Assembly: GCA_947455415.1 (NCBI GenBank)
Contig: CANGNX010000006.1
Location: forward strand, 1 to 33,331
Direction of reading: 5' to 3'
Source of the DNA: Opitutia bacterium
Lineage (GTDB): Bacteria > Verrucomicrobiota > Verrucomicrobiia > Opitutales > UBA953
DNA: 33,331 bases
In this document: positions 1,852-13,452 of the stretch, piece after piece
Layout: each line of letters starts with the position of its first letter
Numbering within the stretch: the first letter of the stretch is position 1
Made by a program: the position numbers and the translations under genes
The notes under the pieces: model-generated
Databases searched by the model: none
Seen by the model: only the letters and a program-made list of their open reading frames with translations
What the model was told of the DNA's origin: nothing

Positions 1852-2841
1852 TCAGGGGGTAGTTTTTACCGTGAGTTCTGGAGTCCAGGCCGCTTGGGGG
1901 TCGAGCTTCACCCACGCCACGCCAGGTAATCCAGTTTTAACTTGTTCGAGGTAGCGTTGCAGTAATTCGCGATTAATGGTGGCCTTGACGCGGAACATGA
2001 GCTTTTGACGTTCCACTGCGGTCTCCACGGTCTTCGGGGTGAATTGTGCGACGCTGGCCACGAATGTAATTTTTGCGGGAATCACAAAGTTCGGTGCGAC
2101 ATCCAGAAGTAATCGAACGTCGGTACCGATGGCGACTTTGCCTGCGACAGTTTCGGGCAGGAAGAAGGTCATGAAAACATCTGAGACATCAACCAAGTTG
2201 AGCACCTTGCCGCCGCTACCGAGTACTTCGCCGGGTTGAGCAATGAGGTATTGGATGCGACCATCACGCGGTGCCTTTAATTCGCAGTCTTTAAGTTCCG
2301 TATCAATGCGGGCAATGGTGGCAGTGATTGCTTTAATCACCGAGCGGGCACCGTTGACTTGTGCCTTCGCGGCCGCGACGGCGGCGGCGGTGCTTCGAGC
2401 GCGTGCCCGATCGTCGTCCACTTCCTGTGCCGAGGCGGCGCCTTCTTTACTGAGAATTTCAGAGCGGGCCACACGACGTTGGGCAGCGTCCTGTTCGCTT
2501 TCACGGTAGGCGACCTCGGCTTCCGCGACGTTTACGGACTGCGTGGCCTGCTCGAGTCGGGCGAGTGCTTCTTCGCGTTGAGCTTTGAGATTAAAGGTTT
2601 CCATTGTCGCCAACAATTGGCCGGCCTTCACGAAATCACCTTCGTTCACATAAATTTTCTCAACGCGACCTGGCGCAAGGGCAGCGATATCAATTTCGGT
2701 TGCCTCAATCCGACCATTGCCGCTCACGAACTGCCCGGCATTTTTATCGGTATTAAGAAACGTCCAGATTTTTTGAATGACAATAATAGCGATAATCAGG
2801 CCAATGATGACACGGAACTTATTTTGTAGTAAATATCTCAT
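1852..2841 (-). CDS. HlyD/YhiI-like periplasmic adaptor (membrane fusion) protein
   Basis: 329 residues. An N-terminal membrane anchor (about residues 8-30) is followed by the biotinyl-lipoyl half-motif ([20 protein letters not shown], near 50-70), then a long Ala/Glu/Arg-rich alpha-helical hairpin (about 80-180), the second lipoyl half ([12 protein letters not shown]) and a beta-barrel region. This is the standard architecture of HlyD/EmrA-type adaptors, which bridge an inner-membrane transporter and a TolC-type outer-membrane channel. The gene begins 5 bases after the outer-membrane channel gene and ends one base before the ABC gene, so the three form one operon. The N-terminal sequence resembles E. 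coli YhiI by eye. The exported substrate cannot be told from sequence. Confidence 0.92.
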
Positions 2842-2846
2842 GGGTA

Positions 2847-4352
2847 TTAATTTGAAGGGGTGGTATTGAGGAGGTCAGGAAGGCGATGGGCACCGCCGCC
2901 CAATGCGATGAAGAGGGCGATTTGATTGGTCAGAATCGCATGCCGGACTTTGACTGATTCTTGGCTGGCGGAGAGGAGGTCGCGTTCGGCATCGAGGACT
3001 TCGAGGTAGCGAGCAGCACCGCTGTCGTAACGGAGTTTGGCTTGTCGACTACGTTCCGCGAGTACGGACGTGGTTGCGTCGATTGAACGGGCTTGTTCGG
3101 TGAGCCATTGCTTGGTCGTGAGTGCGTCAGCCACGTCGCGGAAACTGGCTTGGATGACCTGTTCGTATTGTGCGACGGATTGTTCGCGGCGAATGGTGGC
3201 GACATCGAGAGCGGCTTGAAGGCGGCCGCCGTCAAAAATCGGCAATGAAATGCTGGGGGAGAAATTCCAAGCGCCACTGCCGTCCTTGAAGAGTCCGTTT
3301 AGTTCGGCGCTGGCGGTACCAGCAGTGGCGGTGAGTGCAATACGTGGAAAGAAGGCAGCCCGTGCCGCTTTTATATTTGCCTTAGCTGCCTTGAGGGCGT
3401 GCTCGGCGGCGCTGATGTCTGGGCGATTGATCAGTAGGGCAGAGGGCAGGCCGGTTTCGATTTCCGGGAAGATATTACGGTAGCTTAGTGGCGCAGTGAG
3501 TGGCACTAGGGTTACCGGCGCGCCCACCAGTAAATTGAGGGCGTGGCCTTCGATGGCACGGGCTTGTTGTAACTGCGATATCAGCGTTTCGGCCTGTAAT
3601 GACAAGAGCTCGACCTGGCTGAGCTCGAGTTTGGAAGTGGCGCCGAGTTCAACGCGACGGCGGAAAAGTTGCAGTGAAGCCTTGCGACTTTCGGCGGTTT
3701 GTTTGGCGAGGCCAATGCGTTCATCTAATTCACGTAGGTTCAAATACGTTTTAGAAATTTGTGAGATGAGACCGAGGGTGGCGGCACGGCGGTTATCTTC
3801 ACTTACCAGATAATTTTCGAGGGCGGCGTCGTTTAAATTACGAATGCGACCCCAGAAGTCTGCTTCCCAACTGCTGATGCCGACGGACAGCTGAAACTGA
3901 TTGCCCGTGATGGCGGTGCCGAAGCCGTTGAGGTCACCAGGGATGCGTGCGCGTATGCCAGAGGCCCCGGCATTGAGTGTTGGGGTTTGGTCGGCTTTGA
4001 TGATGCCGTAAGCGGCGCGTGCTTCTTCGACGCGCAAGGCGACCACTCGCAGACTACGGTTCTTTTCAAAAGCGCGACCGATCAAGCCGCATAACTCTGT
4101 ATCGTTAATATACTCCTTCCAATCAATGCTCGCGGCGGGCAGGCTTGTTGCGGTTGATTCGGTGCCATCAAAATTCTTTGAGATAATGGGTGGTGGGTTG
4201 TCGGGCTCAGGGTCCACCGTGCAACCGCTCAACAATAGTAAGGCAAGGCATGCAATGCCCTTAGCCATACCGAAATGTGCCAATCTATTGGTCACATCTC
4301 GGTAAAGAGTGTGTGTACTTTGGGGCACAGTTAAATTATCGCTATTAACCAC
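2847..4352 (-). CDS. NodT/TolC-family outer-membrane efflux lipoprotein
   Basis: The 501-residue frame opens with GTG at 4352. An internal ATG at 4268-4266 gives a more ordinary lipoprotein signal (MAKGIACLALLLLSGC, lipobox LSGC), so the true start may be 4268 (473 residues); neither start has a convincing Shine-Dalgarno sequence. The mature part shows the two-fold outer-membrane-factor repeats, with family landmarks such as SISLPIFDGGRLQAALDVA and a C-terminal SQESVKVRHAILTNQIALFIALGGG. It would form the trimeric outer-membrane channel of the tripartite exporter encoded with the HlyD and ABC genes. It is first in the operon and divergent from the repeat-protein gene, so a promoter is expected in 4353-4450, although I could not pick a clear one. 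Confidence 0.92.
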   Translation of the reverse strand: MVNSDNLTVPQSTHTLYRDVTNRLAHFGMAKGIACLALLLLSGCTVDPEPDNPPPIISKNFDGTESTATSLPAASIDWKEYINDTELCGLIGRAFEKNRSLRVVALRVEEARAAYGIIKADQTPTLNAGASGIRARIPGDLNGFGTAITGNQFQLSVGISSWEADFWGRIRNLNDAALENYLVSEDNRRAATLGLISQISKTYLNLRELDERIGLAKQTAESRKASLQLFRRRVELGATSKLELSQVELLSLQAETLISQLQQARAIEGHALNLLVGAPVTLVPLTAPLSYRNIFPEIETGLPSALLINRPDISAAEHALKAAKANIKAARAAFFPRIALTATAGTASAELNGLFKDGSGAWNFSPSISLPIFDGGRLQAALDVATIRREQSVAQYEQVIQASFRDVADALTTKQWLTEQARSIDATTSVLAERSRQAKLRYDSGAARYLEVLDAERDLLSASQESVKVRHAILTNQIALFIALGGGAHRLPDLLNTTPSN

Positions 4353-4480
4353 CTTTGGTCAACCCAGCAAAAGTGCGAAAAACTATTATTGAGGCTTAAC
4401 CTTGGGATTTGGGCGGCAGTTTGTGTGCTGTTTGGCTAAGGGCACATAGTTCGGGTCTCGCTACTTGAAGAAGATACATT

Positions 4481-4493
4481 GGTAACCGTTTCC
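4481..4493. promoter_or_regulatory. Candidate LacI-family-like operator (imperfect palindrome)
   Basis: The sequence GGTAACCGTTTCC is a near-symmetrical inverted repeat (arms GGTAAC and GTTTCC around a central C, one mismatch per arm) in the gap between the divergent export operon and the repeat-protein gene. AAC-GTT half sites are typical of LacI/GalR-family operators. No LacI-family gene is present in the window, so this is only a candidate site. Confidence 0.25.
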
Positions 4494-4513
4494 ATTGTCA
4501 CAATCGGGTATAA

Positions 4514-4541
4514 TTGCGTTGTATCTGGTTTTTGTTATGAT
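4514..4541 (+). promoter_or_regulatory. Candidate sigma-70 promoter for the 22-residue repeat protein
   Basis: TTGCGT (4514-4519) and TATGAT (4536-4541) are separated by 16 bases. A start site about 7 bases after the -10 would lie only some 4-6 bases before the ATG at 4553, and there is no Shine-Dalgarno sequence. If this promoter is real, the mRNA is leaderless or nearly so. A second TATAAT at 4509-4514 has no -35 box at a usable distance. Confidence 0.4.
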
Positions 4542-4552
4542 ACTTTAATTAC

Positions 4553-5050
4553 ATGAAAACACGATGGCCAGTTTGGGTGTTGGGATTATTTTTAGCCTCG
4601 GTGTTGTTAGCTGCGCCCGAACAAGCAGCTAATAAGAAAACGGGCACGACGACGGTGAATGGAACCATCGATGGTAAAAAGGTGGACACACGTACAACGA
4701 CCTTTGGTGGAATCACTACGACCACTGGTACGGTTGACGGTAAACCCATTCAGACTCGCACGAGTACCTTTGGCGGTATTACGACTACCACTGGCACGCT
4801 CGGCAATCAGCGCATTGACACGCGAACGTCGACCTTCGTCGGCATTACCTCCACGAGTGGAAAGATTGGTGATCAATCGGTGAGTACGCGGACTTCGACT
4901 TTTGGCGGTGTGACCTCCACAAATGGAAATATTGGGTCGGAGAATGTGTCGATGCGTACGACTACTTTCGGCGGGGTCACATCAACTACTGGAAATGTTG
5001 GGGACGACGCGGTTAATTTACGGGAGACGACCTTTGGGGGAGAAAAGTAG
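4553..5050 (+). CDS. Secreted Thr/Gly-rich protein of exact 22-residue repeats (unknown function)
   Basis: 165 residues. A signal peptide (MKTRWPVWVLGLFLASVLLA, cleavage near 20-26) is followed entirely by a tandem repeat. Phe recurs at 51, 73, 95, 117, 139 and 161, exactly 22 apart, each within T-F-(G/V)-G; Arg recurs at 47, 69, 91, 113, 135 and 157; Gly recurs at 37, 59, 81, 103, 125 and 147. Each unit has two Thr-x-Thr/Ser-type triplets (for example T48/T50 and T55/T57) in the same columns. Such strict periodicity with a conserved Gly/Asn turn suggests a beta-solenoid or another stacked beta structure, exported to periplasm or surface. I do not recognise the family. The gene stands alone: divergent from the export operon, and followed by palindromic repeats. 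Absence of indels in five full units indicates strong constraint on repeat length. Confidence 0.85.
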   Translation: MKTRWPVWVLGLFLASVLLAAPEQAANKKTGTTTVNGTIDGKKVDTRTTTFGGITTTTGTVDGKPIQTRTSTFGGITTTTGTLGNQRIDTRTSTFVGITSTSGKIGDQSVSTRTSTFGGVTSTNGNIGSENVSMRTTTFGGVTSTTGNVGDDAVNLRETTFGGEK

Positions 5051-5061
5051 TTTCATTCATA

Positions 5062-5098
5062 GGGGGTACGTGGGCAAGGTGACAACGTTGGCAAGGCG
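5062..5098. repeat. Dispersed GGCAAG-type intergenic repeat, copy 1 (partial)
   Basis: This segment contains TGGGCAAGGTGACAACG followed by TTGGCAAGG. It aligns closely with the left end of the complete 13432-13567 element (GGGGACACGTTAGCAAG, then GTGACATGTTGGCAAGG). It begins 12 bases after the stop of the repeat-protein gene. The right-hand part of the element is not seen here; instead a hairpin of the other repeat family follows directly. Confidence 0.6.
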
Positions 5099-5105
5099 AG
5101 ATGCG

Positions 5106-5170
5106 GCGGATGGTGCGGAGCGCCATCCCTACCCGAGGCAGGGCGCCATACCTATCCGAGGCAGGGCGTG
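5106..5170. repeat. GGATGG hairpin with CCCTACC tail, plus a degenerate repeated unit
   Basis: An inverted repeat, GGATGGTGC (5108-5116) and GCGCCATCC (5120-5128), encloses GGA and is followed by CTACCC. Next comes the unit CCGAGGCAGGGCG twice. The same hairpin-plus-CCCTACC arrangement occurs at 10537 and 11900. The rest of the gap up to the GH2 gene holds no gene that I can support. Confidence 0.6.
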
Positions 5171-5308
5171 GGGGAACAAATCTAAGAGATGAGGGTTTAA
5201 GCAGTACCCCTCTCAATTAACTGCCCCATGTCACCGATACCCGTGCCAACTCTCCCGCTGAATCGCAGGGGTTTACTTTTCCTAATTTTCAGTCAATTAG
5301 GGAGGTCT

Positions 5309-7762
5309 ATGCGCTCAATGCTCAAGGCCTCAATGATGGTTGTGGTAGCTTTGCTTGGTTCCGCCCAGGCAGCTGAATCGACCAGCCAACGTCTTTCGAC
5401 CGGTTGGGAATATTACCAAGGATCATTAGGTAGCACCTGGGAAGTCTGGCGCGGAGAAGCGGCGTCCGATAATGTGACCTGGAACGCGGTAACTTTGCCT
5501 CACTGCTTTAACGGTCGTGATTCGGTCGACCCTGATGTTCGTTATTACCAAGGCCCGGGTTGGTACCGCACGAAGTTGAAGATTAATAATCCGTATCCGA
5601 ATGGTCGGACGGTTTTGCATTTTGATGGTGCCGGTCAGAAATCGCAGGTGTTTGTATACACGCAAAAAGTAGGCGAGCATTTGGGTGGCTATGATCAGTG
5701 GGCAGTGGACATCACGGATGCAGCGGCGAAGGCGTTGGCGCGTAAGGGTGCGAACGGCGAAGTGCCGATTGCCGTGCAGTGTGATAATTCGCGTGAGGCC
5801 GAGAGTGTGCCTTCGGATTTAAGTGACTTTAACCGTTACGGCGGATTGTACCGCCACGTGTATTTAAAATACTTCCCAGCGGTGTCGCTGGAGCGGGTGC
5901 ATGCTTTGCCCGTGTTGGTGAACGGTCAGGCTAATGTGAAAGTTCGAGCGCGTTTGGGTAATCCAACAGGCTTGAAGGACGAAGTCGAATTGGCCTTGGA
6001 AGTCACTGATGCTACGGGCAAAGTTGTACTTTCGAAGACGAGTAAGCTGGCAGTGTGGGCTGGTGAGGTCGAAGTGGCGGCCTTTGACATCAGTCAACCC
6101 GTGTTGTGGTCTCCTAAGACTCCTAATCTTTATAAATTGAAGGCCGTGATTAAGTCGGTGCACGGCGAGCAGATCGTGAATGAACGTTTCGGGGTGCGTT
6201 CGACCGAGTGGGTGGCCAATGGGCCCTTTAAATTGAACGGAGAGCGTTTATTGCTGAAGGGTACGCATTACCATGAAGACCATGCGGGCGTCGCGGCAGC
6301 GGTGCCAGATGAAGAGGTTCGTAAGACCATGCAGATGATTAAAGACATGGGTGCGAATTTCGTTCGACTCGGTCACTATCAACAAGCCCCGCTGGTCTTG
6401 GAACTCTGTGACGAATTAGGCCTTTTGGCCTGGGAGGAAATTCCGTGGTGTCGCGGTGGTTTGGGTGGTGACCGTTACAAGCAGCAATGTTTGGACATGC
6501 AAAAGGCGATGGTTGATCAGCACATGAACCATCCATCGATTATCATGTGGGGTTTAGGTAATGAGAATGATTGGCCCGGTGATTTTGAAGTGCAGGACAA
6601 GGAAGCCATTAAGGCGTTTATGAAGGTGCTGAATAAGCAATCCCATGATTTGGATCCGTCGCGCGTGACGACGATTCGGCGCTGCGATTTCTGTAAGGAT
6701 ATTGTCGACGTGTATTCGCCGAGTATCTGGGCGGGCTGGTATTCCGGTCGTTACACGGAGTATAAAGACTCGACGGACAGTTGGATTAAGAAAGTGAAGC
6801 ACTTCTTCCACGCGGAGTGGGGTGGTGACAGTCACGCTCGTCGCTTTGCAGAGGACCCAGAGTCGATGGTTGAAAAGATTGAAGTCGGTCAGGGTACAGC
6901 CGAGAAGGGTAAGGCCTATAAAGCCTCCAGTGGTGGCAAGGTGCGGATGTCGAAGGACGGCGATTGGTCGGAGAGTTACATGGCAAACCTCTTTGACTGG
7001 CATTTGAAGGAGCAGGAAACCATGCCTAATTTAACCGGCAGTGCGCAGTGGATCTTTAAGGACTTTGCGACGCCGCTGCGTCCCGAGAATCCTGTGCCAC
7101 GTATGAATCAGAAGGGCGTGATTGAGCGTGATGGTACACCCAAGGAGTCATTTTATATTTTCCAGAGCTATTGGTCGGAAAAACCTATGGTGCGCTTGTT
7201 TGGTCATGAGTGGCAGACCCGCTGGGGTAAGGCGGGCGAGGCGAAAGAAATTCGCGTCTATTCAAACTGTGCACAGGTTGAATTGTTTGTGAATGGTAAG
7301 TCGGCTGGCGTGAAAAAACGTAACAGTCAGGATTACCCGGCAGCGGGCTTGCGCTGGAATATCGTACTCAATGAAGGGGCGAACCAATTGAAGGCGGTCG
7401 CTGTGGCTGAAAAGATTTCAGATGAAATCACAGTTGGCTATCAGAGCGCCGTCTGGGGTACACCGGCGAAATTGGTACTTAAAGAAGTCGCACAAAAGGA
7501 TGGCGTCGTGACGTTGGAAGCTCGCATTTACGATGCTGCAGGTGTGGCGTGTTTGGATGCCGCCACGTTGGTTCGCTTCGGCAATATTGGTGATGCAAAG
7601 TTATTAGATAATCTCGGCACCTCAACTGGTGCACGTGCCGTTCAATTGTACAACGGGCGTGCGATTATTCGTGCCGAGTTAACGGGTCCGAAGGCCTGCT
7701 TTAGCTTAGCATCGCAAGGTCTGGAGACGCAGTACCTCTTCGTTAACATCTCTAAGAAATAA
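5309..7762 (+). CDS. Secreted glycoside hydrolase family 2 (beta-galactosidase/glucuronidase-like)
   Basis: The frame is open from 5228, but the ATG at 5309 is preceded by a strong AGGGAGG (5299-5305) and starts a clean signal peptide (MRSMLKASMMVVVALLGSAQA), so 817 residues are preferred. Domain order fits GH2: jelly-roll sugar-binding domain (about 25-200, with FNRYGGLYRHVYL), immunoglobulin-like domain (about 205-310), and TIM barrel (GVRSTEWVANGPFKLNGER onward). The presumed acid/base is E419 in WGLGNEND and the presumed nucleophile is E503 in HAEWGGD. A C-terminal beta-sandwich region (about 630-817) resembles the extra domains of many Bacteroidetes/Verrucomicrobia GH2 enzymes. The signal peptide puts it in the periplasm or outside. 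It is the first gene of the lyase/sulfatase cluster, 7 bases before the first lyase. Exact sugar specificity (galactoside, glucuronide or other) cannot be read from sequence. Confidence 0.9.
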   Translation: MRSMLKASMMVVVALLGSAQAAESTSQRLSTGWEYYQGSLGSTWEVWRGEAASDNVTWNAVTLPHCFNGRDSVDPDVRYYQGPGWYRTKLKINNPYPNGRTVLHFDGAGQKSQVFVYTQKVGEHLGGYDQWAVDITDAAAKALARKGANGEVPIAVQCDNSREAESVPSDLSDFNRYGGLYRHVYLKYFPAVSLERVHALPVLVNGQANVKVRARLGNPTGLKDEVELALEVTDATGKVVLSKTSKLAVWAGEVEVAAFDISQPVLWSPKTPNLYKLKAVIKSVHGEQIVNERFGVRSTEWVANGPFKLNGERLLLKGTHYHEDHAGVAAAVPDEEVRKTMQMIKDMGANFVRLGHYQQAPLVLELCDELGLLAWEEIPWCRGGLGGDRYKQQCLDMQKAMVDQHMNHPSIIMWGLGNENDWPGDFEVQDKEAIKAFMKVLNKQSHDLDPSRVTTIRRCDFCKDIVDVYSPSIWAGWYSGRYTEYKDSTDSWIKKVKHFFHAEWGGDSHARRFAEDPESMVEKIEVGQGTAEKGKAYKASSGGKVRMSKDGDWSESYMANLFDWHLKEQETMPNLTGSAQWIFKDFATPLRPENPVPRMNQKGVIERDGTPKESFYIFQSYWSEKPMVRLFGHEWQTRWGKAGEAKEIRVYSNCAQVELFVNGKSAGVKKRNSQDYPAAGLRWNIVLNEGANQLKAVAVAEKISDEITVGYQSAVWGTPAKLVLKEVAQKDGVVTLEARIYDAAGVACLDAATLVRFGNIGDAKLLDNLGTSTGARAVQLYNGRAIIRAELTGPKACFSLASQGLETQYLFVNISKK

Positions 7763-7769
7763 TTTTATT

Positions 7770-8963
7770 ATGAAACAAATTACGAAAGTAATGGGTGCAG
7801 TTATGGCGGCCGCTGCTTTGGCGACGGTCGCATTGGTCACCTTGCCATTGAAGGCTGCGGCCGAGGTAATGGTCGATGTAGCGGCGCATGATAAGGAGCG
7901 CATTTTAAAGTTGGCGGACGCGGCATTGAAGCAGGTGCCTTTGACTATCACCTCGGACGTGGCCAAGTACACCACCGGTGGCCCTAATGATTTCTATTCG
8001 AATGGGGATTACTGGTGGCCGGACCCCAGCAAGCCAGATGGCGTGCCCTATGTGCAACGTGACGGCCAGACGAACCCAAATAATTTCGTGGCGCACCGAA
8101 TGGCCATGCGAAACACTAAGGACGCGGTCGCAGCCCTGGCGGCGGCCTACAAAGTCACTGGCGATGATAAGTATGTCGTGAAGGCATCGGAGCTATTGAA
8201 GGTTTTCTTTATTGATGAAAAGACACGGATGAATCCGCACCTTGCATTCACGCAGGCCATTCCCGGTCGAACGACTGGATCAAAGACTGGGGTAATCGAT
8301 GGGCTGCACTTAGTTGAAATTCCAGCGGCGATTAAGGCATTGGAGAAATCAAAGGCCTTTGATGTGGAACTAGCGAAGGCATTGCATGCCTGGTTTGCGG
8401 AGTTGAATCACTGGATGCTGACGCACAAGAACGGCATCGATGAAGGTGAGTCGCTTAATAATCACGCCGTGGCATACTTCTTACAAGTCGCGGTCTTTGC
8501 GGATTTTAACGGCGAAAAAGAAACGTTAGCGAAATGTCGCACGCGCTTTAAGGATGTCTTTGTGAATGTGCAAATGGCAGCGGATGGAAGTTTTCCGCGT
8601 GAGACGGCGCGCACGAAGCCCTATGCGTACTCGATTTTCCAGTTAGATAATATGGTGTTGTTGTGTAAGGTATTATCGACCCCTGAGGACAACCTTTGGA
8701 ATTACGAGGGACCAGAAGGTCGCACTATTAGGAAGGCTGTGGCCTGGCTGTACCCTTATTTAGCGGATAAATCTACCTGGCCTAAGAAGCCCGATGTGAT
8801 GGCTTGGGACGGTTGGCCGTCGCGTCAGCCAGCCTTATTGTTTGCAGGTCAGGCTTACAATGAGCCGAAGTACATTGAACTTTGGAAGAAGTTGCCGACT
8901 GATCCTACGGACTTAGAAGTCCGCCGGAATATTGCGATTACCCAGCCAGTGTTGTGGCTTTAA
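7770..8963 (+). CDS. Secreted alginate-lyase-superfamily polysaccharide lyase (PF05426-like), paralogue 1
   Basis: 397 residues with an N-terminal signal peptide (about 1-32, ending LPLKAAAEV). The body matches the alpha/alpha-toroid alginate lyase family. An early block, FYSNGDYWWPDPSKPDG, is followed by a helical repeat region, the N-N-H motif at N230/N231/H232, and ARTKPYAYSIFQLDN, whose Arg and Tyr are placed like the catalytic Arg/Tyr of PL5 A1-III. These residues suggest beta-elimination of a uronic-acid chain; placement in PL5, PL38 or a neighbouring family cannot be settled by eye. It lies 7 bases after the GH2 gene and is likely co-transcribed with it. A stem-loop begins at its stop codon. 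It shares the overall plan and active-site motifs with the lyase at 10652 but is clearly diverged from it. Confidence 0.85.
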   Translation: MKQITKVMGAVMAAAALATVALVTLPLKAAAEVMVDVAAHDKERILKLADAALKQVPLTITSDVAKYTTGGPNDFYSNGDYWWPDPSKPDGVPYVQRDGQTNPNNFVAHRMAMRNTKDAVAALAAAYKVTGDDKYVVKASELLKVFFIDEKTRMNPHLAFTQAIPGRTTGSKTGVIDGLHLVEIPAAIKALEKSKAFDVELAKALHAWFAELNHWMLTHKNGIDEGESLNNHAVAYFLQVAVFADFNGEKETLAKCRTRFKDVFVNVQMAADGSFPRETARTKPYAYSIFQLDNMVLLCKVLSTPEDNLWNYEGPEGRTIRKAVAWLYPYLADKSTWPKKPDVMAWDGWPSRQPALLFAGQAYNEPKYIELWKKLPTDPTDLEVRRNIAITQPVLWL

Positions 8964-8985
8964 GTGCACGAAGTGCAGCTTAAAG
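8958..8985 (+). terminator. Stem-loop overlapping the lyase stop codon
   Basis: CTTTAAG (8958-8964) pairs with CTTAAAG (8979-8985) and TGCAC pairs with GTGCA around a GAA loop, giving 12 base pairs with one bulged G. The TAA stop lies inside the left arm. No T-run follows, so it is not a standard intrinsic terminator; it could be an attenuator or an mRNA 3'-end stabiliser. The GAA loop resembles that of the hairpins inside the neighbouring dispersed repeats. Confidence 0.5.
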
Positions 8986-8987
8986 CT

Positions 8988-9121
8988 ACAGTGGGCACGG
9001 GTATCGTTGGCACGCGGGTAAGGGGAGTGGTCGAAGGCCACAGTGGGCATGGTGACACGGGGACAAGAGTAACTATATATGTATCGTCCCTAAACTCGTG
9101 CCAACTTGCCCACGTGTCCCC
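8988..9121. repeat. Dispersed GGCAAG-type intergenic repeat, copy 2 (about 134 bp, diverged)
   Basis: The right end, CTTGCCCACGTGTCCCC (9105-9121), matches the right end of the 13432-13567 element except for one base, and the preceding CTCGTGCCAA is identical. Internally it has GTGGTCGAAGGCCAC, a GAA-loop hairpin in the position of GTGAGCGAAGCTCAC in the other copy, and GTGGGCATGG in common. This fills most of the gap between the first lyase and the first sulfatase; no gene is seen there. Confidence 0.65.
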
Positions 9122-9171
9122 TGTGAATAATACACAGGGTTGAACTTTGGCTGGGTTGAGGGGTTAATGAG

Positions 9172-10500
9172 GTGATGCAATTAGTGGCTATAATATTTTT
9201 AAGCCTAATGTTTGGCGCTGAGGCTCGAGCGGCGGAGCCACGTCCAAATATTTTAGTTATTGTGGTGGACGATTTGGGTTGGGCGGGGGTGGGGTATCAC
9301 AATAAGGCGATGACCACACCGAATTTGGATAAATTGGCGAAAGAGTCGGTGGAACTGCAGCGCTTTTACGTTTATCCTGTGTGCAGTCCGACACGTGCGG
9401 CTTTATTAACGGGTCAGATGCCCCGTCGATTTGGAATTACCACGGCGTTAAATGGGAATGACCCAGGGATTCCTGCGGGGCTGTCGACGATTGCCGGCAC
9501 TTTGAAGTCGGTTGGCTATCATACGTCGCTCGTGGGCAAATGGCATTTAGGAAAAGCAACGGTGCCACAGGGCAATGGTTTTGAACATTTTTACGGATTC
9601 ATTTCAGCAGAGGTCGATTATTATAAACATACGGCGAAGAATGGGCGGGCTGATTGGCAACGGGATGGGAAGGCTGTGGAGGAGGAGGGCTATTCGACTT
9701 ATTTATTGGCGGATGATGTGGTGCGGCAGGTTAAGTCACGCGATAAGACTAAGCCCTTTTATATTCAGCTATGTTTGAATGCCCCGCACGATCCGTTGAG
9801 TGCGCCGGCGGAGTTGGTGCAGAAGCATAAGGCGAAGGGTGAGAAGTTGGGGCTGTATGCGGCAGTGGTGGAGGCGATGGACCAGGGAATTGGTCGCGTG
9901 CTCAATGTTTTAGAGTCCGAAAAAATCAAGGAGAACACCTTGGTAGTATTTTTCTCCGACAATGGAGCGTCGGGTCGGGAGGGTGGAGATAACACGCCGC
10001 TTAATTCGGGCAAGGGGTCGGTATATGAGGGTGGAATTCACACGCCGGCATTGGTGCGTTGGCCAGGACGGCTGGCGGCGGGTACGGGTTTGGCACAACC
10101 CGTTTGCGTGCAGGATTTATACCCGACCTTAGTGGCGGCGGCGGGGGCGACGATGCCAACGAAAGGCAAGGTGGATGGAGCTAATCAGTTAAACGCCTGG
10201 TTATCGGGTAAGGTGCAGCCACGTGATGCCTTTGTGGTTTCGGTGAGCGACACCGCGTTAATTGATGGCGATTGGAAATTGATTAAATTTTCGGACGGCA
10301 AAAAGGCGTTGTATAATTTAAAAGATGATCTTTCAGAGCGTAATAATTTAGTGACCAAGCAGGCGGATGTGGTCGCGAAGCTTTCGGTGAAGATGGATGA
10401 ATTAACGAAAGGCTTGCCTGAAGTTGAGACACCGAAGGCGGGACCTGGGTCGGGTGGTGGCGGTGGACAGGGCGCAGGGCAGGGGCCACGGAAGAGGTAG
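9172..10500 (+). CDS. Secreted formylglycine-dependent sulfatase, Cys-type, 1
   Basis: 442 residues. The start is either GTG at 9172 or the adjacent ATG at 9175; GAGGGG at 9158-9163 suits both. A signal peptide (about 1-20) is followed by the S1 sulfatase fold: metal ligands in VVDDLGWAG, the formylglycine motif C71-S-P-T-R followed by AALLTGQ, then GKWHLGK, NAPHDP and FFSDNGASG. The Cys form needs a separate formylglycine-generating enzyme or anSME maturase, neither of which is in the window. It would remove sulfate esters from a polysaccharide outside the cytoplasm. The C-terminus ends in a Gly-rich low-complexity tail (about 425-442). It sits between the two lyases, which suggests that sulfate removal and chain cleavage act on the same glycan. 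Substrate position is unknown. Confidence 0.92.
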   Translation: MMQLVAIIFLSLMFGAEARAAEPRPNILVIVVDDLGWAGVGYHNKAMTTPNLDKLAKESVELQRFYVYPVCSPTRAALLTGQMPRRFGITTALNGNDPGIPAGLSTIAGTLKSVGYHTSLVGKWHLGKATVPQGNGFEHFYGFISAEVDYYKHTAKNGRADWQRDGKAVEEEGYSTYLLADDVVRQVKSRDKTKPFYIQLCLNAPHDPLSAPAELVQKHKAKGEKLGLYAAVVEAMDQGIGRVLNVLESEKIKENTLVVFFSDNGASGREGGDNTPLNSGKGSVYEGGIHTPALVRWPGRLAAGTGLAQPVCVQDLYPTLVAAAGATMPTKGKVDGANQLNAWLSGKVQPRDAFVVSVSDTALIDGDWKLIKFSDGKKALYNLKDDLSERNNLVTKQADVVAKLSVKMDELTKGLPEVETPKAGPGSGGGGGQGAGQGPRKR

Positions 10501-10599
10501 GGGCGCGACTGCGTCGCGTCCGATACAAGATACAGAGGATGGCGACGGTTCGCCATCCCTACCCGAGCAATAGGGCATCACGCAGTGCTGCCCCTACCC
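10501..10599. repeat. Three successive short hairpins with CCTACC tails
   Basis: Directly after the sulfatase stop are GGGCGCGAC/GTCGCGTCC (10501-10521, loop TGC), GGATGGCGA/TCGCCATCC (10537-10558, perfect 9-bp stem, tail CCTACC) and GGGCATCAC/GTGCTGCCC (10573-10593, tail CCTACC). All belong to a GC-rich hairpin family also seen at 5106 and 11900. The remaining 10600-10651 shows nothing else. One of these hairpins could end transcription, but none has a T-run. Confidence 0.6.
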
Positions 10600-10651
10600 C
10601 CATCGGGAACAATTGCTGGTGGGGGGTGTTGGAATGTGATACGCAAAGACT

Positions 10652-11884
10652 ATGAAGTTATTATCCCTATCGTTAATGCTATCGGTTGGCTTGGTGGCTG
10701 CGGAGGTCGCTCCGCAGGTGGCTGCGCCCGCTGTGATGACATCGACCTACTATGGGGCACGTCCAGGTGTTTTGGAAAAGGCCAAGGCCTTAATGGCACA
10801 AGGTGATAAGGACGCTTTGTTGGTCTTAAAAAATTTAACAAAGGAAGCGGATAAAGTCTTGGATGATAAGCCGCTCACGGTGACAGATAAAAAATTATTA
10901 GCCCCCAGCGGGGATAAGCATGACTATGCGAGTCTGTCGCCTTACCGCTGGCCCAATCCGGCGACAGCTGATGGCCTTCCTTATATTTTGAAAGACGGAG
11001 AGGTAAATCCTGAGAGTAGAGATTTCGACAATAGTGATAGCGGACGAGGTCTGGCTTTGGCTAAGGCGATGAGACTGACCTGTTTGGCTTATTATTTTAC
11101 GGGTAAAGAGGTTTATGCAGATTGGGCAATCAATCAGGCCCGGGTTTGGTTTGTGGATGAGGCCACCCGAATGAATCCTGATTTAAAGTATGCCCAGCTT
11201 ATCCGTGGGGCGAAGAAGTTTGATAATAAGACCGGCATGCTGGAGGGCCGTCACTTGGCGCTGACGGTGGATGCCTTGGCGTTGGTCGCGAATGCGAAAG
11301 GTTGGAAGCCGGGTGAACGCGAAGCGATCGAAGCGTGGTCAGCTAAATTCTTTGATTGGATGGTTACCAATGAGCTGGGCAAGGCAGAGAGTGAGTCGAC
11401 GAATAATCATGGCACCTACTATGACGAGCAGGTGGTGCGCTGGGCGCTGCATTTAGGAAAAACGGATTTTGCAAAAACTGTTTTAGAAAACGCTAAGAAG
11501 AAGCGTATTGCCGCACAGATTGAGGTCGACGGAAAGCAGCCGCGTGAATTGGCACGCACCAATGCGTTGAGCTACTCACAATTCAGTCTACGCGGCATGT
11601 GTGGCTTGGCCATCATGGGTGAGTATGTCGGAGTAGATCTTTGGAATTATAAATCCGAGGACGGTCGGAGCATCGGACTAGCGATGGAGTACCTTTTACC
11701 CTACATCGATGCCCCGCGGAAGGAATGGCCCTATAAGCAGATTGTTGCGAAGAAAGTGGAAGTGCCTGAGCTTTTGCCTGAATTGCGCATGGCGGCGATT
11801 ACGATGAAGAAGCCCCAGTATGAAGCGCTCGTGCAGCGTAATAACGCTAAATTATCGTTGGAGTTATTTTTAGGGGGGCTCTAG
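10652..11884 (+). CDS. Secreted alginate-lyase-superfamily polysaccharide lyase (PF05426-like), paralogue 2
   Basis: 410 residues with a signal peptide (MKLLSLSLMLSVGLVAAEVA). It has the same plan as the lyase at 7770: SLSPYRWPNPATADGLPYI opposite the YWWPDP block of the first, WFVDEATRMNPDLKYAQ, then TNNHGTYYDEQ with the presumed catalytic N252/H253, then RELARTNALSYSQFSLRG with the Arg and Tyr. Overall match to characterised PF05426 alginate lyases looks closer than for paralogue 1. Beta-elimination on uronic-acid polymers is inferred. The two paralogues alternate with sulfatases and differ enough to suggest distinct substrates or cleavage positions rather than a recent duplication. No good Shine-Dalgarno precedes the ATG. 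Palindromic repeats lie on both sides. Confidence 0.87.
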   Translation: MKLLSLSLMLSVGLVAAEVAPQVAAPAVMTSTYYGARPGVLEKAKALMAQGDKDALLVLKNLTKEADKVLDDKPLTVTDKKLLAPSGDKHDYASLSPYRWPNPATADGLPYILKDGEVNPESRDFDNSDSGRGLALAKAMRLTCLAYYFTGKEVYADWAINQARVWFVDEATRMNPDLKYAQLIRGAKKFDNKTGMLEGRHLALTVDALALVANAKGWKPGEREAIEAWSAKFFDWMVTNELGKAESESTNNHGTYYDEQVVRWALHLGKTDFAKTVLENAKKKRIAAQIEVDGKQPRELARTNALSYSQFSLRGMCGLAIMGEYVGVDLWNYKSEDGRSIGLAMEYLLPYIDAPRKEWPYKQIVAKKVEVPELLPELRMAAITMKKPQYEALVQRNNAKLSLELFLGGL

Positions 11885-11899
11885 TTTAGGGGAGATGTA

Positions 11900-11970
11900 G
11901 CGGATGGGGCGGAGCGCCGTCCCTACCAAAGAGTTCAGGTGACAAGGGTTTAGTTGGCAAGGAGTGTGGG
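11900..11970. repeat. GGATGG hairpin followed by a fragment of the GGCAAG-type repeat
   Basis: GCGGATGGGGCGGAGCGCCG followed by TCCCTACC (11900-11927) is a diverged copy of the hairpin at 5106. It is followed by GGTGACAAGGG and TTGGCAAGGAG (about 11938-11964), which match the second block of the complete element. Thus both repeat families sit side by side here, as at 5062-5134. Confidence 0.55.
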
Positions 11971-11988
11971 ATGTGGTAGGTAGTACGG

Positions 11989-13452
11989 ATGAAGCGCCTA
12001 ATTATATTTTTATTATTAGCGACGGTGTGGTTGGGGGCGGCGGAAGCGGTGCCAGCCAAGAAGCTGAATGTTTTGTTCATCATCTCAGATGATATGAATA
12101 ATGACTTGGGTGTATATGGTCACCCGTTCGTGCGATCGCCGAATCTCGATAAGCTGGCGGCGAGGGGTGTGAGATTTGATCGGGCTTACTGTCAGTTTCC
12201 ATGGTGTGCCCCGAGTCGGGCGTCGTTCATGACGGGGCTACGTCCCGACACGACGAAGGTTATGGATTTAACTTATCATTTTAGAAAGGGTTTACCCGAT
12301 GTCGTGACGATGCCTCAGGCCTTTATGAAGGCGGGCTATTTTGCAGCGCGGGTGGGGAAGGTTTATCATTACGGAAACCCTGGTGATATTGGTACGAGCG
12401 GGGCGGATGACCCAGCTTCGTGGAATCAGGTGGTGAATCCGGCAGGCCGCGACAAGACGGCATTAGAGAATGATATCTTAATTTATCCGCCGACGACTGC
12501 CTTGGGGTCATCGATGTCATTACTCGCTGATCGCACGGGCAAAGATGAAGAGCACACGGACGGCAAGGTGGCGACAGAAGCGATTAAATTATTGGAGGAG
12601 CATAAAGATGGCCCCTTCTTCTTGGCGGTAGGATTTTATAAACCACACTGTCCATGGGTCGCTCCACAAAAGTGGTTTGATATGTATCCACTGGAGCAGG
12701 AAGTGTTGCCGCCGATTGCCCCTAATTGGAAATCAAGCGTGCCTGCGGCGGCCTATGATACGGGGGTGGAGTGGCCTTATCGTGGCGTAACGCCAGAGCA
12801 GGCGCGGGAATGTCGACGGGCTTACCATGCGACCATTTCTTATGTCGATTCACAGATTGGTCGGGTGGTCGATGCATTGGATCGATTGGGTTTAGCGGAT
12901 AACACGGTCATCGTTTTCATCAGTGACCACGGATACCATTTAGGTGAACACGGCTTGTGGATGAAGCAGACTTGCTTTGAGGAAGCGGCACGGATTCCGA
13001 TGATTGTCGTGGCACCGAAGGCGGCGGCAAATGGTAAGGCCTCGAAGCGTACCATTGAATTGGTGGATATTTACCCAACGTTGACTGATTTAGCGGGAGT
13101 GAAGGCGCCTGACGGATTGCAGGGTGTTAGTTTACGACCTTTGTTGGAGGATGCTGATGCCTCATGGAATCGAGCCGCGTACACGCAGACGGTGACCAAG
13201 GGAAAGGGCAAGATACAGGGATACAGTGTGCGTACTGAGCGTTGGAGATTTACCGAGTGGCAGTATGGAGAAAAAGGGATGGAGCTTTATGACCACGATA
13301 AGGATCCGCAGGAGTTAAATAATTTAGCGAATGATCCCGCGTATGCGTCGGTCGTCGCGGAATTGAAAGTGATGAATAAGAAGGCGCACCCGGTGATGGT
13401 GAAGCCGGGTGTGGCGAAGGAAAATAATTTAGGGGACACGTTAGCAAGGTGA
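11989..13452 (+). CDS. Secreted formylglycine-dependent sulfatase, Cys-type, 2 (iduronate-2-sulfatase-like)
   Basis: 487 residues. A signal peptide (MKRLIIFLLLATVWLGAAEA) precedes the S1 sulfatase domain: FIISDDMNNDLG with metal-binding Asp pair, modification motif C73-A-P-S-R, GKVYHYG, GFYKPHCPW, and SDHGYHLGEHGLWMKQTCFE. The last block is characteristic of the iduronate-2-sulfatase branch of S1 sulfatases. A role in desulfating a uronic-acid-containing polysaccharide would suit the neighbouring lyases, but specificity is inferred from branch similarity only. Its final codons (GDTLAR and the TGA) lie inside the left end of the dispersed repeat at 13432, so the natural C-terminus may once have been different. 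It is the last gene of the cluster. Confidence 0.92.
   Translation: MKRLIIFLLLATVWLGAAEAVPAKKLNVLFIISDDMNNDLGVYGHPFVRSPNLDKLAARGVRFDRAYCQFPWCAPSRASFMTGLRPDTTKVMDLTYHFRKGLPDVVTMPQAFMKAGYFAARVGKVYHYGNPGDIGTSGADDPASWNQVVNPAGRDKTALENDILIYPPTTALGSSMSLLADRTGKDEEHTDGKVATEAIKLLEEHKDGPFFLAVGFYKPHCPWVAPQKWFDMYPLEQEVLPPIAPNWKSSVPAAAYDTGVEWPYRGVTPEQARECRRAYHATISYVDSQIGRVVDALDRLGLADNTVIVFISDHGYHLGEHGLWMKQTCFEEAARIPMIVVAPKAAANGKASKRTIELVDIYPTLTDLAGVKAPDGLQGVSLRPLLEDADASWNRAAYTQTVTKGKGKIQGYSVRTERWRFTEWQYGEKGMELYDHDKDPQELNNLANDPAYASVVAELKVMNKKAHPVMVKPGVAKENNLGDTLAR

Follow-up and report, generated by a model that had tools for sequence, protein, structure and literature searches.

A predicted secreted hairpin-repeat protein with a threonine-rich conserved face in an Opitutia bacterium

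Results

The window, meaning the whole 33,331-nucleotide stretch of Opitutia DNA analysed here, carries a gene for a small repeat protein on its forward strand at 4553-5050. The open frame begins with ATG and spans 165 codons plus stop, with the coordinates that the preliminary description had given. Upstream of it, at 1852-4352 on the reverse strand, are the genes for an HlyD-type membrane-fusion protein and an outer-membrane efflux protein. A relative that is 95% identical in the repeat protein (L022, an Opitutae MAG) has different DNA in place of 1852-4352, and the conserved block therefore starts near the repeat gene. Directly downstream, at 5120-5168, a 23-base GC-rich element (GCGCCATACCTACCCGAGGCAGG) occurs in 2.1 tandem copies; at the corresponding position L022 has only one copy, and no further copy lies elsewhere in the examined part of the genome. 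A polysaccharide-degradation cluster follows at 5228-13452, all on the forward strand, encoding a GH2 protein, two alginate-lyase-family proteins (PF05426) and two sulfatases, and the repeat gene lies directly upstream of these GH2, alginate-lyase-family and sulfatase genes in both the window and L022. An Rfam scan of window positions 4300-5300 gave no match.

The repeat gene is real and under purifying selection, because the dN/dS of its repeats is about 0.12 between the window protein and L022, and because a comparison with a 64% identical relative (L003) gives a dN of about 0.25 at saturated synonymous sites; seven other genomes of the genus hold relatives. The opposite strand of 4553-5050 contains an open frame of 89 amino acids (4607-4876) and one of 66 amino acids that begins within the gene, both of which we take to be shadows of the repetitive gene.

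Residues 1-21 (4553-4615, forward strand, as are all features below) look like a Sec signal peptide, as judged from residue features alone: an n-region that has two or three basic residues and a net charge of +2, a hydrophobic stretch that begins at residue 9, and small residues around A20-A21, ahead of A21/P22. The structure model makes this segment a helix of low confidence. All relatives inspected share the layout, several with Ala-x-Ala-like sites, which agrees with the earlier proposal of secretion, and we predict that the protein is secreted through a Sec-type signal peptide. A linker, PEQAANKKT (4616-4642), is predicted to be disordered (pLDDT < 50 in the models) and leads into an N-terminal half unit (4643-4681) with a strand at residues 31-39 and a turn at D40-G41, as assigned by DSSP on the models; TTTVNGTIDGKK (residues 32-43) stands ahead of the first full repeat. 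Five repeats follow: VDTRTTTFGGITTTTGTVDGKP (residues 44-65, 4682-4747), IQTRTSTFGGITTTTGTLGNQR (66-87, 4748-4813), IDTRTSTFVGITSTSGKIGDQS (88-109, 4814-4879), VSTRTSTFGGVTSTNGNIGSEN (110-131, 4880-4945) and VSMRTTTFGGVTSTTGNVGDDA (132-153, 4946-5011). The third has Val at the turn Gly position, where L022 has Gly. A C-terminal half unit, VNLRETTFGGEK (154-165, 5012-5047), closes the protein. The mature part is 28% Thr and 17% Gly, with a GRAVY of -0.53 and a pI of about 9.6.

From residue 44 onwards the sequence keeps a period of 22 residues, uninterrupted by indels. At a lag of 22 the mature part has a self-identity of 0.58 (58%), against a mean of 0.13 and a maximum of 0.25 in 20,000 composition-preserving shuffles (z = 16). 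The columns described earlier are all present: Phe at 51/73/95/117/139/161, Arg at 47/69/91/113/135/157 and, in five units each, the two Thr pairs running from T48/50 to T136/138 and from T55/57 to T143/145. In four units T46, T68, T90 and T112 extend the first motif to T-x-T-x-T. The repeat had been called perfect, which is true of its spacing but not of its units, which have 11-15 of 22 residues in common. Between any two units, 7-10 of the identical residues are encoded by different codons, and Tandem Repeats Finder reports no DNA repeat within the gene. Because units and codons differ and no DNA repeat is left, the repeat is old and held by selection on the protein, and is not the product of fresh slippage.

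As had been suggested, the repeat was sought in other Verrucomicrobiota with a profile, here built from seven sequences. Within the genus it found the family in 8 of 55 genomes; outside the genus, the sampled genomes of the class gave no match and those of the phylum gave one (protein P0008, locus L039, E 1e-4). Members within the genus are of three types: the window type, to which the window, L002/L022 and L003 belong; a longer one, seen in L004 and L005, that has additional units and a C-terminal tail; and one built of TIGNQTYTNGRIGD units, seen in L006. L007 is short, and L008 is a remnant. The longer relatives, at 1438-2106 of L004 and 1240-1899 of L005, share a conserved terminal tail (…GLGGxxxxGLLIPLE), which is missing from the window protein. 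At 6473-7704 of L028 (genome G054) lies a remnant of the L005 type, two units and the C-terminal tail, beside an IS200-like (Y1_Tnp) transposase gene. Weak matches in the genus and order (L009-L020, weaker than about E 0.01) were set aside; those inspected, a part of them, looked unrelated. As a control for similarity that arises from composition and period, we permuted the unit columns of the target 500 times: none of the 500 permutations was as good as the real match of the window protein to L003, L004 or L006, and by this sequence criterion the genus family is solid. Gene neighbours differ among the relatives, so this is a stand-alone gene.

Scans of the window protein against Pfam, NCBIfam and PHROGs, and of its relatives against Pfam, returned nothing usable, and among PDB sequences neither the protein nor the alignment profile obtained more than chance matches. 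This agrees with the preliminary description, in which the family was not recognised. The DUF3494 ice-binding family (PF11999) did not match the window protein in a Pfam scan up to E 10. A match to LRR_5 (BspA leucine-rich repeat) was discarded, having appeared in the L006 relative only, at 22.5 bits against a cut-off of 27.7, and not in the window protein. This is a real, conserved and apparently undescribed hairpin-repeat family that no curated family covers.

We modelled the protein twice with AlphaFold2, once from a two-row alignment of the window sequence and one relative (pLDDT 75.9) and once from the mature sequence alone (pLDDT 85.1, pTM 0.65); the alignment behind the former is shallow. 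Both models have the same 12 beta strands, alternately of 10 and 8 residues, broken by two residues at 52-53 and 62-63 and then every 22 residues. The turns are of Gly-Gly type at 52-53 and D/G-G/N/D at 62-63, and such two-residue Gly/Asn/Asp turns fit tight hairpins. An up-and-down antiparallel meander with two strands per repeat is thus the predicted fold, and we consider it likely to be right. The preliminary description had instead proposed a solenoid in which each 22-residue unit is one coil and the T-x-T columns form two faces; with structure prediction now run, both models give the hairpin meander. Nor would a solenoid of this unit length have been novel, because curlin repeats already form a beta-arch solenoid of 22-23 residues (PMC10192328).

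Structural comparison points to the same arrangement. VIA-align places 127-137 residues of both models on the walls of porins, VDAC and Tom40, for most at Z of about 9-10 and an rmsd of about 2.5-3.2; these walls are sequential antiparallel hairpins, and the high scores may perhaps reflect no more than that common arrangement. Foldseek gave no match that reaches E 0.001, its listing including OspA mutants (E 0.04-0.2) and beta barrels. What the matches to the models have in common is that antiparallel hairpins follow one another within a single curved sheet.

Among described architectures the MORN repeat (23 residues) comes closest; our protein resembles it in outline without being a member. 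MORN repeats likewise place one beta-hairpin in each unit of 22-23 residues and build an elongated antiparallel sheet, as predicted here, with a conserved Gly within a strand and conserved residues on one face, and MORN1 structures show self-association (PMC7725318). However, the YEGEW, GxG and LxY motifs are absent from the window protein, Pfam finds no MORN match, and the strands have 10 and 8 residues with turns of 2, compared with strands of 6 and 6 and turns of 5-6 in MORN (PMC7725318). The single-layer sheet of OspA, mutants of which are among the Foldseek matches, also consists of consecutive hairpins in one layer, but there is no sequence similarity, the scores are weak and OspA has globular end domains, whereas here the sheet would be the whole mature protein.

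Turns of two residues imply that residue i pairs with residue 105-i within the first hairpin, and with 125-i across the turn after it. In this model register T48 lies opposite T57, T50 opposite T55 and T46 beside G59. One face then carries Val/Ile at 44 and 61, Thr at 46, 48, 50, 55 and 57 and Gly59, and the other R47, the Phe51/Ile54 pair and Ser/Thr at 49, 56 and 58. The two T-x-T columns, earlier assigned to two faces, are thus predicted to be neighbours on a single face, in a T-x-T-x-T / T-x-T lattice: over a run of four or five hairpins T46/T48/T50 and, on the next strand, T55/T57 share that face, and Thr makes up 54% of its residues in the window clade. Threonines so placed would be about 7 angstrom apart along a strand and about 4.7 angstrom between strands, distances that all beta sheets have and that are similar to those on the known T-x-T faces of ice-binding proteins. 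Hydrophobic residues account for 23-24% on each face in the window clade.

The Thr face is also the more conserved. Across the three genus types, identity averages 0.48 for positions on the Thr face and 0.14 for those on the opposite face (permutation p = 0.0013), in a test that takes its register from the model and its rows from repeats that are not independent, and that a beta arch whose strands began and ended at those residues would equally satisfy. By column, G59 is invariant among the relatives, followed by T57 (98%), T55 (77%), T48 (73%), T50 (61%) and T46 (60%). L003 retains all Thr ranks; in L004 and L005, T50 is replaced by Arg and T46 by Leu or Val while the rest of the repeat is retained.

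Beyond the genus, the protein resembles a wider class of small repeat proteins that we call GNTTY-type. The units of P0008 are 22 residues long and follow the pattern VSGSSRKVGNTTYHNVTVDGKR. P0008 in turn matches 26 of 387 genomes sampled from the phylum (about 7%), and similar small proteins with a signal-peptide-like start, annotated as hypothetical, occur on plasmids of Alteromonas, Phaeobacter and Cereibacter. Proteins of this type (P0008, Alteromonas AGP79955.1 and Phaeobacter WP_199536933.1) share with ours the signal-peptide-like start, a short tandem unit, a turn of the form aliphatic/aromatic-G-N/G, alternating Thr/Ser/Tyr and a Gly in the second turn. They differ in a second strand that is rich in Tyr, where that of the window protein is rich in Thr, and in their varied periods (15, 19, 20, 22 and 23 across the class). 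In the column-permutation control, no permutation of 500 equalled the match between the window protein and AGP79955.1, a link we therefore regard as good at the level of sequence. Against P0008, 181 of 500 permutations were as good for the window protein, and none of 500 for the L006 protein. The link from the window to the class hence appears to run via the L006 protein, and convergence might account for it. Klebsiella plasmid matches of the L006 protein were rejected as a different repeat (DYGKQVNFADGR). Plasmid searches with the window and L004 proteins found none, searches of viral and phage collections found no relatives, and a literature search with GNTTY motifs as strings returned no paper.

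Discussion

We tentatively favour, at a probability of roughly 45%, the reading that the protein is secreted, forms a sheet that associates with itself, and serves structure or adhesion in the envelope or the extracellular matrix. The mature part would be one continuous 12-strand antiparallel meander, two strands to each 22-residue repeat, with a lattice of conserved Val/Ile, Thr and invariant Gly on one face. Because such a single layer would have no hydrophobic core and two open edge strands, its working form is probably self-associated, through contacts between edges and/or between conserved faces. The same three features, together with predicted secretion and the lack of partner genes, argue for a role in the envelope or matrix, in structure or in adhesion. 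The conserved face may serve for packing or for binding; its invariant Gly rank and Val/Ile end ranks would suit sheet packing better than a flat ice-binding plane.

The neighbourhood suggests another role, that of an accessory glycan-binding surface protein of the adjacent polysaccharide-degradation cluster. The repeat gene shares the strand of the cluster and lies 177 bases before the GH2 gene, an order that the 95% identical relative keeps. A sulfatase gene (G054) and glycoside hydrolase genes (G034) lie near other copies, but such genes are common in these genomes, and in further ones the neighbours are carotenoid genes with a gamma-glutamyltransferase (G019), a PriA-like helicase gene (G049) or the gene for a DUF4955 protein (G006). 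No carbohydrate-binding family matches the protein, and we consider this role unlikely.

A curli-type functional amyloid would arrange the 22-residue units as strand-arc-strand in a two-sheet parallel solenoid that polymerises on the cell surface. CsgA and CsgB are likewise secreted proteins of about 150 residues with five to six 22-residue units of two strands each, and curlin repeats average 23 +/- 5 residues (PMC10192328); the window protein matches them in unit length, small size, secretion signal and a Gly-rich turn after the first strand. However, the N-x-psi-x-psi-x-Q core is missing and Pfam finds no curlin match in the protein. The curlin repeat (PF07012) occurs in 0 of 55 genus genomes, with a positive E. 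coli control, as does the CsgG channel, for which 4 of 14 controls were positive and the window's own genome is 67% complete. The models also give two-residue turns and an antiparallel meander, whereas curlins reportedly come out of AlphaFold2 as solenoids (PMC10192328). Because curlin repeat and CsgG are absent from the 55 genomes and curlins are reportedly predicted as solenoids, we regard this reading as decidedly unlikely.

Ice binding, which together with mineral binding the earlier note had offered as speculation from the Thr pattern, would have the Thr lattice of one face order water, in an antifreeze or recrystallisation-inhibiting protein. In-register Thr ranks on one sheet face are what the window protein shares with the T-x-T beta-solenoid ice-binding and ice-nucleation proteins, and the run of Thr over four or five hairpins, its 54% share, its spacing and the retention of every rank at 64% identity all fit, the spacing as it would in any beta sheet. 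The known bacterial T-x-T proteins, however, are parallel solenoids, while the fold predicted here is antiparallel. Two of the Thr ranks vary within the family, with Arg for T50 and Leu or Val for T46 in relatives, an invariant Gly rank occupies the same face, and there is no match to a Pfam ice-binding family. Neither the sporadic occurrence of the family (8 of 55 genus genomes) nor the range of unrelated bacteria that carry proteins of the wider class fits a testable cold pattern. We hold ice binding to be highly unlikely; if true, it would reveal a new design for an ice-binding face. There is only a faint prospect that the protein is a flat, non-solenoid counterpart of the T-x-T proteins whose two-dimensional Thr lattice binds ice, mineral or crystalline glycan. 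An outer-membrane beta barrel, or a subunit of an oligomeric one, receives scarcely any weight from us: the 12 sequential antiparallel strands and the best structural overlaps, with porin and VDAC walls, would suit it, but there is no hydrophobic face (hydrophobic residues make up 23-24% of either one in the window clade), the strands have only 8-10 residues with two-residue turns on both sides, and there is no aromatic girdle.

Found in about 7% of the sampled phylum genomes (26 of 387) and on Proteobacterial plasmids, the wider class is without a Pfam or NCBIfam name. The six near-identical hairpins of the window protein also make it an attractive subject for studying how single-layer sheets fold and associate. 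Within the phylum, GNTTY-type proteins without a family name, of which that at 1435-1878 of L039 is one, are scattered over other families at loci L041-L049, with periods of 19-23.
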